Assembly: GCA_018242065.1 (NCBI GenBank) | Contig: JAFECQ010000003.1 | Location: 124,001 to 188,000 of the forward strand | Direction of reading: 5' to 3' | DNA from: Pseudomonadota bacterium | Lineage (GTDB): Bacteria; Pseudomonadota; Alphaproteobacteria; UBA9655 | Length of the DNA stretch: 64,000 bases | Shown here: positions 49,715 to 56,629 of the stretch, piece after piece | Numbering within the stretch: position 1 is the first letter of the stretch | How the letters are laid out: the number at the start of each line of letters is the position of its first letter | The notes under the pieces: model-generated | Told to the model about the DNA's origin: nothing | What the model saw: only the letters and a program-made list of their open reading frames with translations | Database searches by the model: none | Position numbers and translations under genes: made by a program

Positions 49715-51214
49715 ATGATAAAGAAACTTTGCCTTTTTGCCCTAACTGGAATGTGTTTCAGTAGCGCTCTTCAAGCCTTACCTGATCCTTTACAAGATCC
49801 ACGTGTAAAAAAAATATACGATTATTTTCAGGGAAAAGAGCTATGGGTCCAAAATGGTACCTGGAATGATTGTGCAAAAACTCTTTTAGATACTTTTTCA
49901 CATGTTGAAGATGAAGGGTTATGGCAGCAGGATTACACTCCTTTTCTTGAAGCCCTCCAGAAAGCAGATTTAAGCACCCCTGAAGCGCAAAGTCATGCGG
50001 ATCAACTTCTTACACTAGCGGCTTTAAATTATATCTCTGATATGAATGGAGAACGATTAACACCTCACTCAGTAGATAAGAATACTTATGTGAAACAACC
50101 CTCAATTGATGAAGTCGAACTATTAAAAGGTTATGCTTCTCTCTCTAGCCAATGTGGCTGGATTCATGGACTTTCACCTTCTATTCCTGAATATCAACAT
50201 CTCAAACAGCTTCTCGTACTCTATCGTCAAAAGCAAACCCAAGGAGGCTGGCCACAACTGCCAAAAGGAACAAAGCTTGCAAAAGGAGATAAAGGGCCTC
50301 TCGTTGAAATTCTAAAAACTCAATTAATCACTCAAGATGCCCTCCCTAACCACGGAGGAGAAAATGATATTTTTGATGAGACCATAGAGACTGCGGTCAA
50401 AGATTTTCAAAAATCACATGGACTTGAAGAAGATGGCAAGGTAGGAGGAGCAACATTAACCGCTCTTAACATTCCCGTCGAAGAGCGCATTCGGTCAATT
50501 ATCGTCAGTTTAGAAAAGCAACGGTGGTTCCCAAGACCTCTGCCTGCACGTTACATTCAAGTCAATGTTCCTGGTTTCTATCTAAAAGCAGTTGAGGGAG
50601 GAGCCCCTACTTTTTATATGCCAATTATTACGGGAAAAGAATACACCAAAACACCCATTTTTAATGCTTCTATGACGGAAATCATTTTTAATCCCTCCTG
50701 GCACGTCCCTGCGAGCATTGTCGGAGAAATTCTCCCTAAGATTCAAAGAAACCCAGAAACATACGCCAGGAAAGGCTACCGAGTAGAAAATGAAGGAGGC
50801 TCTGTCCGAATTGTTCAGAGTCCTGGCCCTGCAAACTCACTCGGAAGAATTCGTTTTACAATTGATAGCCCCTTTTCAGTTTATTTACATGGAACGCCTA
50901 ATCCTAAATTGTTTCTAAAAGCCAACCGAGCCCTTAGTCATGGATGCATTCGTGTTCAAGACCCTACTAAGTTAGCTGAATTCGTTTTTCAAGACCCAAC
51001 GAAATGGTCGCTTGAAAGGATTAGTTCTGAAACATCGACAACAGCAACCAAACGTGTAAAACTTGATCAATCTCTTGCGGTCTTCATTACTTATTTCACT
51101 GTTTTTCAGGATGAAAATAACAAAATGAATTTCGTAGAAGACAAGTATAAACAAGATAAGGAACTTTGGTTAGCCCTCGAAAACGCCAAAAGGAATTATA
51201 AAGAAGAGCAGTGA
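49715..51214 (+). CDS. L,D-transpeptidase (YcbB/LdtD type) with peptidoglycan-binding domain
   Basis: This 499-residue protein has a signal peptide (cleavage near LQA|LP), a helical N-terminal domain (about 25-170), a PG_binding_1 domain (about 190-255: LAKGDKGPLVEILKTQL...DGKVGGATLTALNI) and a YkuD catalytic domain. The active site is HGTPNP...ALSHGCIRVQ with His409 and Cys411. It forms 3-3 crosslinks or attaches proteins in periplasmic peptidoglycan. AGGAGG upstream. About 80 residues follow the catalytic domain, without known motif. Confidence 0.95.
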   Translation: MIKKLCLFALTGMCFSSALQALPDPLQDPRVKKIYDYFQGKELWVQNGTWNDCAKTLLDTFSHVEDEGLWQQDYTPFLEALQKADLSTPEAQSHADQLLTLAALNYISDMNGERLTPHSVDKNTYVKQPSIDEVELLKGYASLSSQCGWIHGLSPSIPEYQHLKQLLVLYRQKQTQGGWPQLPKGTKLAKGDKGPLVEILKTQLITQDALPNHGGENDIFDETIETAVKDFQKSHGLEEDGKVGGATLTALNIPVEERIRSIIVSLEKQRWFPRPLPARYIQVNVPGFYLKAVEGGAPTFYMPIITGKEYTKTPIFNASMTEIIFNPSWHVPASIVGEILPKIQRNPETYARKGYRVENEGGSVRIVQSPGPANSLGRIRFTIDSPFSVYLHGTPNPKLFLKANRALSHGCIRVQDPTKLAEFVFQDPTKWSLERISSETSTTATKRVKLDQSLAVFITYFTVFQDENNKMNFVEDKYKQDKELWLALENAKRNYKEEQ

Positions 51215-51289
51215 GAAGATTGAAACAAATTTATTTTGGATACATTTCTTAAACAGACATCTGGATCCTTTGCAAAATTATTTTTGGTT

Positions 51290-51452
51290 GATGGATCCTC
51301 GGCCAAGAAATTCTAATGTTTCTCTACGAGAAACGAAGAATTTCTTGCCAAGGATGACAGGAAACAGGCCTCCCAGGTGTCATCCTTGGGCTAGGAAAGA
51401 CTTGTTTTTCCTCGAAAAACAAGTTTTTTCTTGTCCCGAGGATCTAAGGCAA
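51290..51452. repeat. Palindromic repeat cluster (family C-like) with several hairpins
   Basis: Two long stem-loops stand tail to tail: GGATCCTCGGCCAAGAAATT pairs with AATTTCTTGCCAAGGAT (51294-51355), and the second half, TGTCATCCTTGG to CCGAGGATC (51378-51451), encloses ACTTGTTTTT-CCTC-GAAAAACAAGT. CCAAGGATGACA (51348-51359) is also inverted against TGTCATCCTTGG (51378-51389). The open frame through it is an artefact of the repeat. Related in sequence to the 56.8 kb inner repeat (GGATCCTCG...GGATGACA). Confidence 0.75.
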
Positions 51453-51498
51453 GTTAAGCTTTGTAAAAAGCTTATTTCTATTAACAGGATAATGAACA

Positions 51499-51759
51499 AT
51501 GAAAAATAAACATCTCACGACCTCAATCATCGCGGCTTTTACATTTGTAATGACAGAAGCAAGTCAAGCAGAAGAAACACCCCAAAAATGCCAAATTAAT
51601 GGCCCAGATGGAAAAAGCTTGATAAAGGCAGGGAAAGCTGACTGTGCCGGGGGTGGCAATTCTTGTTCAGGAAGTAATCCTGAGGGTGATCCAAGCGCAT
51701 GGCTTTTGTTACCTTATGGCGTTTGTGAAAAGATTAAAGGTGGCGTTGTCGTCAAATAA
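51499..51759 (+). CDS. DUF2282 / bufferin-like (BufA1-type) small exported protein
   Basis: The protein has 86 residues, a signal peptide (cleavage near SQA|EE at 24) and four mature cysteines: C31, C49, C56 and C76. The surrounding text, GKSLIKAGKADC, GGGNSCSG, GDPSAWLLLPYGVCEKIKGG, matches the DUF2282 signature (AGKxDC, xHSC/NSC, W, P.G.C..I.GG). Members characterised as bufferins are ribosomally made peptides whose cysteines are modified by an MNIO (DUF692) enzyme BufB with its partner BufC, and which bind copper in the periplasm. Here the usual bufB and bufC neighbours are absent, so modification would need enzymes encoded elsewhere. ACAGGA precedes ATG by nine bases. Confidence 0.85.
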   Translation: MKNKHLTTSIIAAFTFVMTEASQAEETPQKCQINGPDGKSLIKAGKADCAGGGNSCSGSNPEGDPSAWLLLPYGVCEKIKGGVVVK

Positions 51760-51997: not shown

Positions 51998-52219
51998 TCA
52001 CCAAAACCAAGGACGAGGATAAGCCCTATAAGGATGCCCCCAATAAGGATGTCCCCAACGATGTCCCCAATAAGGATGTCCCCACCATCGAACCTGAGTG
52101 ATTTGGCTTTGTTCATTTACAGTTGGAACAGGTTGTATCGTCGAAGCATTTGCTTCTTGACCTGAGCTAAGAGCAATTACCCCTGTAACCATCGCTGTCG
52201 CAAGTATTAATTTTTTCAT
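51998..52219 (-). CDS. Small exported protein with WGHPY repeats
   Basis: The ATG at 52219 follows GGAGG by five bases and yields 73 residues with a signal peptide (cleavage near ANA|ST). The C-terminal third is made of WGHPY/WGHRW units in tandem (WWGHPYWGHRWGHPYWGHPY), encoded by an imperfect DNA tandem repeat at about 52020-52085. Regular His with Trp/Tyr suggests metal binding or a structural surface peptide. Layout parallels the neighbour at 52303-52578, which may be a diverged paralogue. Confidence 0.7.
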   Translation of the reverse strand: MKKLILATAMVTGVIALSSGQEANASTIQPVPTVNEQSQITQVRWWGHPYWGHRWGHPYWGHPYRAYPRPWFW

Positions 52220-52302
52220 AGAAACCTCCATAAATATTAATTTATCAGCATCATTCTTACAAAGGAGATGGCTGAGAAAATATCTCAACCATCCCCTTTA
52301 TA

Positions 52303-52578
52303 TTAGAATATACAGACCGGGCCTACACATAGACTTGGTGAGTCGTCGTAGAATACAGGGCCACCATAGTATCCTGGCCCACCATAGAAGTATCCTGGGC
52401 CACCATAGTAGCCCCAGCCGTCGCCACCATGGTGATGATGACCGCGTCTAGCAAGAATAACCCCCGAATTATCACTCTTCTGTGCGGTCGGTTGAGTAAC
52501 TATCGCTCCCACTGATGCACTGGTTCCAAGCGTAATTACAGCCCCAAGAACCATCGCTGTTCCAATTATAGTTTTCAT
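52303..52578 (-). CDS. Small exported His/Gly/Tyr-rich protein
   Basis: The 91-residue protein has a signal peptide (MKTIIGTAMVLGAVITLGTSASVGA), a GGGAGGA site five bases upstream, then RRGHHHHGGDGWGYYGG and tandem GGPGYFYGGPGYYGGP units, ending SPSLCVGPVCIF. The HHHH run and CVGPVC pair suggest metal or disulfide chemistry; Gly/Tyr repeats are low-complexity. It is transcribed with the WGHPY gene, with 83 bases between them. Confidence 0.7.
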   Translation of the reverse strand: MKTIIGTAMVLGAVITLGTSASVGAIVTQPTAQKSDNSGVILARRGHHHHGGDGWGYYGGPGYFYGGPGYYGGPVFYDDSPSLCVGPVCIF

Positions 52579-56320: not shown

Positions 56321-56629
56321 ATGAGGCAAGGCTTTGTTCAATGTATTTTAATAGCTCTCGTCCTATTGTTTTCAAACGTAGCAAAAGCCTGTGATGAAAA
56401 GTCTTCCACACCTTATGCGTGTTGTATGATTGAAGGCCAGTCGCTTTCTAAGGACACAAAAACATTAAAAGTTCCTACGAAAGTTTGTTCTTCAGGAAAA
56501 TCATATTGTAGTAAAGAAGAGTGCTCTCCTGCTCATGAACTCAACAAACTTCAACCAGGTGATATTGATAGGTGTGAACCTAATAAATTTAATCAATGTA
56601 CCTGTTGTCACCACCACCCAACTTCATAA
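56321..56629 (+). CDS. Exported protein with ten cysteines and a CTCCHHH end
   Basis: The 102-residue protein has a signal peptide (cleavage near AKA|CD at 23) and a clear site (GAGGAG six bases before ATG). Mature cysteines are C24, C34, C35, C56, C63, C68, C85, C93, C95 and C96, followed by H97-H99. The density (10 Cys in 79 residues) with terminal HHH suggests metal binding, disulfides or a precursor for cysteine modification. It is not a recognised family. It is flanked by family B repeats on both sides. Confidence 0.75.
   Translation: MRQGFVQCILIALVLLFSNVAKACDEKSSTPYACCMIEGQSLSKDTKTLKVPTKVCSSGKSYCSKEECSPAHELNKLQPGDIDRCEPNKFNQCTCCHHHPTS

Follow-up and report, generated by a model that had tools for sequence, protein, structure and literature searches.

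Which enzyme, if any, modifies a bufferin precursor whose gene has no MNIO (DUF692) gene beside it? This question is raised by a bufA-like gene (Table 1) in the stretch of DNA that we analysed, hereafter the window, which comprises 64,000 nucleotides (C33:124001-188000) of a 1.9-Mb draft genome in 45 contigs.

The 86-residue product of this gene matched PF10048 (DUF2282) in Pfam with an E value of 3.5e-11 and a score of 43.4 bits (curated cut-off, 22.4), and thus bore out the first-pass annotation, which had described a DUF2282/bufferin-like precursor with a four-cysteine pattern. The four cysteines, at positions 31, 49, 56, and 76, are invariant in all 10 genus orthologues and also in a set of 19 sequences that covers Legionella, Bacteriovorax, and Burkholderiales among others. 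Judged by a dN/dS of 0.13 to 0.22 between close orthologues, bufA is a genuine gene under purifying selection, although the test is weak for the branch of the window genome itself, where dS against most orthologues has reached saturation. A chance open reading frame was ruled out by the Pfam match, the conservation, and the dN/dS values. A search of NCBIfam with the peptide gave zero matches, and comparison with solved structures gave no match by sequence. The AF2 model reached a mean pLDDT of 75, with the Cys-bearing part, mostly at 87 to 92, being the sole usable part, and a fold search with this model found no match in the PDB.

Table 1. Coordinates of the bufA-like gene, its surroundings, and related loci (window positions unless another locus is named)
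Feature	Position	Strand	Remarks
ldt, YcbB/LdtD-like L,D-transpeptidase (TRANSPEPTIDASE)	49715..51214	+	Directly upstream of bufA, same direction
ldt-bufA gap, 284 bp	51215..51498	+	Repeat core about 51269-51472
bufA-like gene, 86-aa Buf1/DUF2282 bufferin precursor	51499..51759	+	ATG start; PF10048, Cys, leader
Leader/Sec-type signal peptide (putative), about residues 1-25	51499..51573	+	Common to MNIO-adjacent precursors of congeners
Second complete buf operon	L003 4248-8516 = G000:C33 102.2-106.5 kb		MerR, MerT, LysR genes upstream
Lone doxX between ppx and rsmD, ancestral-cluster remainder	L110 3468-3926 = G000:C33 about 53.5 kb		

The same annotation had called the precursor an orphan. This holds for its surroundings, since no bufB or bufC and no DUF692 (PF05114) gene lies beside bufA or anywhere in the window, but not for the genome, where we found just two PF05114 loci, C33:104507-105289 (outside the window) and C42:80863-81660, each accompanied by a DUF2063 partner. 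A truly orphan precursor was ruled out by these two pairs and, because both lie elsewhere in the genome, the window precursor is unlinked, not orphan; a DUF692 gene at another site was the finding that the annotation itself had said would overturn the orphan label. Among the options that the annotation had left, service by distant enzymes is the one now favoured, over an unmodified or a repurposed peptide.

The first of these loci is part of a second buf operon, itself complete, which lies on C33 some 70-71 kb upstream of the window peptide and has the order MerR-MerT-LysR-bufA-bufB-bufC-doxX, in which bufA encodes a DUF2282 protein and bufC a DUF2063 protein. The second locus is a bufBC pair located beside mreB without an adjoining precursor, and the 200-bp gap between the pair and mreB contains no plausible precursor ORF. 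The residues that are invariant in BufB homologues, His/Asp/Glu included, are intact in the C42 BufB. In the MNIO tree, the C42 enzyme falls inside the genus clade with 99/99 support; that of the second operon falls outside, so that this operon may have been acquired. Inside the genus clade, the C42 enzyme shows a weak grouping with G012 and G002 and not with its species-tree sister; the bufBC genes at C42 may therefore have been re-acquired instead of simply relocated. Comparison of the upstream regions of bufA and bufBC yielded no shared regulatory motif, only short, mostly A/T-rich 9-mers.

The separation of precursor and enzymes can be followed across the genus. The MNIO operon (bufB-bufC-doxX) was read in nine congeners, in most of which it is flanked by ppx and rsmD. 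G002 has retained a four-Cys orthologue in the operon, ahead of bufB and in tandem with another peptide that is poor in Cys. The four-Cys gene is found at another site in G001 and G014, where the MNIO-adjacent peptide has two cysteines, in G004 and G007, where it has none, and in G003, G006, G010, and G011, where no MNIO-adjacent peptide was recognised. Congeners other than those with bufA next to ldt have it at different sites, near glyA or elsewhere. At the ppx-rsmD site of the window genome, doxX alone is left, and the ancestral cluster (precursor, bufB, bufC, and doxX) is dispersed over three loci, with bufA beside ldt in the window, bufBC beside mreB on C42, and doxX at the old site on C33. 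Leader-bearing peptides with a Cys-less core were also observed in G004, G007, G012, and G013 (G013:C31:11126 = L166; L044, L046, L167), mostly directly before the MNIO gene, and could be either decay products or substrates of another type.

The N-terminal leader offers a means of predicting which precursor pairs with which enzyme. Preliminary data in PMC12452194 indicate that the signal peptide belongs to the BufB-BufC recognition sequence. The leader has the consensus MKKxxLTxIxAAAFxxVxxExAQA, and by eye the window peptide begins with an n-region and a hydrophobic stretch followed by ASQA-EE. An HMM was built solely from five leaders, all of them from MNIO-adjacent peptides in congeners; against it, the window peptide ranked first of 475 sequences (27.0 bits, E value of 7.4e-8), above every other genus orthologue. 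A second profile, made from eleven leaders (those five and six of four-Cys orthologues, the window's included), returned a single strong match in the whole window genome, the window peptide itself (E value of 4.9e-14; next, 0.33), and no match in G005, G008, and G009, three congeners that lack an MNIO. Part of this similarity may reflect common descent alone; whichever its origin, it associates the window peptide with BufBC of the genus type. The same comparison bears on the complete second operon, whose BufBC (C33:104 kb) could modify the window peptide and so serve two precursors, an arrangement of one MNIO pair for several precursors that is considered possible in PMC12452194. Even with this operon complete and only about 70 kb off on the same contig, we regard such double service as unlikely, given that the leader of its own BufA differs (-5.1 bits against the first leader HMM), that its MNIO lies outside the genus clade, and that congeners carrying the window peptide mostly have the genus-type MNIO alone.

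Precursor and enzyme also occur together. A bufA orthologue and an MNIO are both present in ten of the 17 genomes of the order and both absent from six; the one exception, G012 (63% complete), has an MNIO with no orthologue recognised (one-sided Fisher p of ∼6e-4, calculated by hand for a small order of draft genomes and ignoring genome kinship). A tree of dnaN, dnaA, ldt, and gyrB places the window genome as sister (support 84) to G013 plus the G003/G006/G010/G011 clade, and within this group G013 is sister, with 100% support, to the four bufA carriers. G013 has neither an MNIO nor the four-Cys precursor but has kept a Cys-less leader-bearing protein. The joint loss of two unlinked genes, a single clear event and not a repeated one, supports functional dependence between them.

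It is quite unlikely, in our opinion, that the window peptide acts unmodified, as a repurposed periplasmic Cys or disulfide protein such as an LDT partner or a redox protector. PMC12452194 allows for stand-alone precursors that are not modified, and here nearly all congeners encode the precursor away from the MNIO, with one clade having it coupled to ldt; nevertheless, both central cysteines and the leader remain conserved, precursor and MNIO co-occur despite being unlinked, and the protein retained by the MNIO-less G013 is merely a Cys-less leader-bearing one. A decaying remnant heading for loss, with no present function, is highly improbable, for although the gene sits away from the operon with a repeat probably inserted upstream, and leader-bearing relatives lacking core cysteines occur in G004, G007, G012, and G013, the ORF is intact, the four cysteines are kept, and dN/dS is well below 1 among orthologues (a weak measure on the gene's own branch, with dS saturated).

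The explanation that we consider likely is that the window peptide is a functional Buf1 bufferin precursor, split from its biosynthetic operon and modified in trans by the BufBC pair of C42. The cytoplasmic, "precursor-less" BufBC would recognise the window peptide by its conserved leader and oxidise the central Cys49 and Cys56 to thiooxazoles. The modified peptide would then be exported by Sec, closed by a disulfide between Cys31 and Cys76, and would bind excess copper in the periplasm. Less certainly, the co-expressed peptide might keep the YcbB-like LDT working under copper stress, a step suggested by the fact that LDTs, as a class with a catalytic Cys, are inhibited by copper and by a presumed co-expression of the two genes.

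The product of ldt has Scaffold, PG_binding_1, and YkuD domains (Pfam) and an SHGCIR catalytic motif, and its nearest solved structures are those of YcbB (6ntw and 7aj9). In G003, G006, G010, and G011, a single nucleotide lies between the ldt stop and the bufA start, with an AAGGA inside the end of ldt. This junction, with its ribosome site within ldt, implies co-transcription of ldt and bufA in these four congeners and makes translational coupling probable. In the window genome the core of the gap is a palindromic dispersed repeat with 22 matches in the genome including itself, the other copies being 69-86% identical and lying on both strands and on several other contigs. The repeat was probably inserted between ldt and bufA and, because it now separates both genes, their co-transcription in the window genome is not assured; a promoter consensus scan of the + strand found none within the gap. 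This repeat is a candidate MITE-like element.

The ldt gene itself is older, being present in 15 of the 17 genomes of the order, also in genomes without buf genes. No LDT was found near any of 57 other sampled DUF2282 loci (which include three second precursors of congeners), 50 of which have an MNIO nearby. LDT-DUF2282 adjacency as a general feature was ruled out by this sample, and the ldt-bufA linkage is confined to one small clade. Among the papers listed by our literature search, no relevant one linked bufferins to transpeptidases. Published work describes inhibition by copper of the LDTs of E. coli and of purified V. cholerae LdtA (PMC11390936; PMC6593411). From gene order and this known chemistry we infer, tentatively and with doubt prevailing, that in this clade the bufferin could be an MNIO-modified, copper-binding partner, translationally coupled to ldt, that protects the catalytic Cys of the YcbB-like LDT from copper. 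If true, the 3-3 cross-linking of peptidoglycan would be tied to copper buffering by a RiPP; the ldt-bufA arrangement suggests a concrete target for bufferin protection and a link between copper stress and cell wall remodelling.

Other small genes were observed around bufA. Two small exported Gly/His/Tyr-rich proteins are encoded beside it on the - strand (52303-52578 and 51998-52288), one of which has SLCVGPVCIF at its C-terminus. In G006, G010, and G011, bufA is adjoined by similar Gly/His-rich proteins, which end in CVGPxC or CIGPLC, and in G001 by other Gly/His-rich proteins. These neighbours are possible metal-binding companions, and their CxxxxC has a form like that of the CxxxxC precursor group of PMC12452194. 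Further along the + strand (56321-56629) lies a gene for a 102-aa exported Cys-rich protein that ends in CTCCHHHPTS and has no Pfam or NCBIfam match. Outside the genus, a DUF2282 gene of Legionella massiliensis (L100 5878-6757) has no MNIO detected within 6 kb and is followed by apparent YceI and cytochrome b561 genes, making it an unlinked bufferin with different neighbours. In Cocleimonas/Thiotrichaceae (L105 5180-6681 and L099 2974-4216), tandem DUF2282 genes precede a DoxX-like gene, and an MNIO was not detected within the stretch examined.

Both the family of the window peptide and the kind of situation in which its gene is found are already known. The peptide resembles Buf1 bufferins (DUF2282) in its signal-like leader, the four cysteines in the Buf1 pattern, the C-terminal GVCxKIxGG, and a PF10048 score above the curated cut-off. 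It differs from canonical Buf1 in that ∼7 additional residues separate Cys I from Cys II, and its gene is unlinked from bufBC and doxX and adjoins an L,D-transpeptidase gene. With Captophorins and EGKCG oxazolins (PMC13097082) it would share the general scheme of a Cys peptide modified by an MNIO with a DUF2063 partner, but its core is of the DUF2282 type and not of the EGKCG repeat type.

The closest comparison is with stand-alone Buf1 precursors (Antoine et al. 2025, PMC12452194). Unlinked precursors are there reported to make up a sizeable proportion of Buf1, linkage being usual but not defining, and an MNIO is present in nearly all genomes with Buf1 precursors. The window peptide is like these in having no adjoining MNIO and an MNIO elsewhere in the genome. 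What is new here is that the dispersal has been traced, that leader and phylogeny point to a probable cognate enzyme pair, and that bufA is arranged with ldt. The locus bears on how stand-alone bufferin precursors are served, a question raised by PMC12452194, as a traceable natural break-up of a RiPP operon in which precursor and enzyme seemingly are still interdependent. Unlike the stand-alone precursors described before, in this case the break-up of the operon can be traced across species and a probable cognate, precursor-less BufBC pair can be matched to the peptide through its leader.
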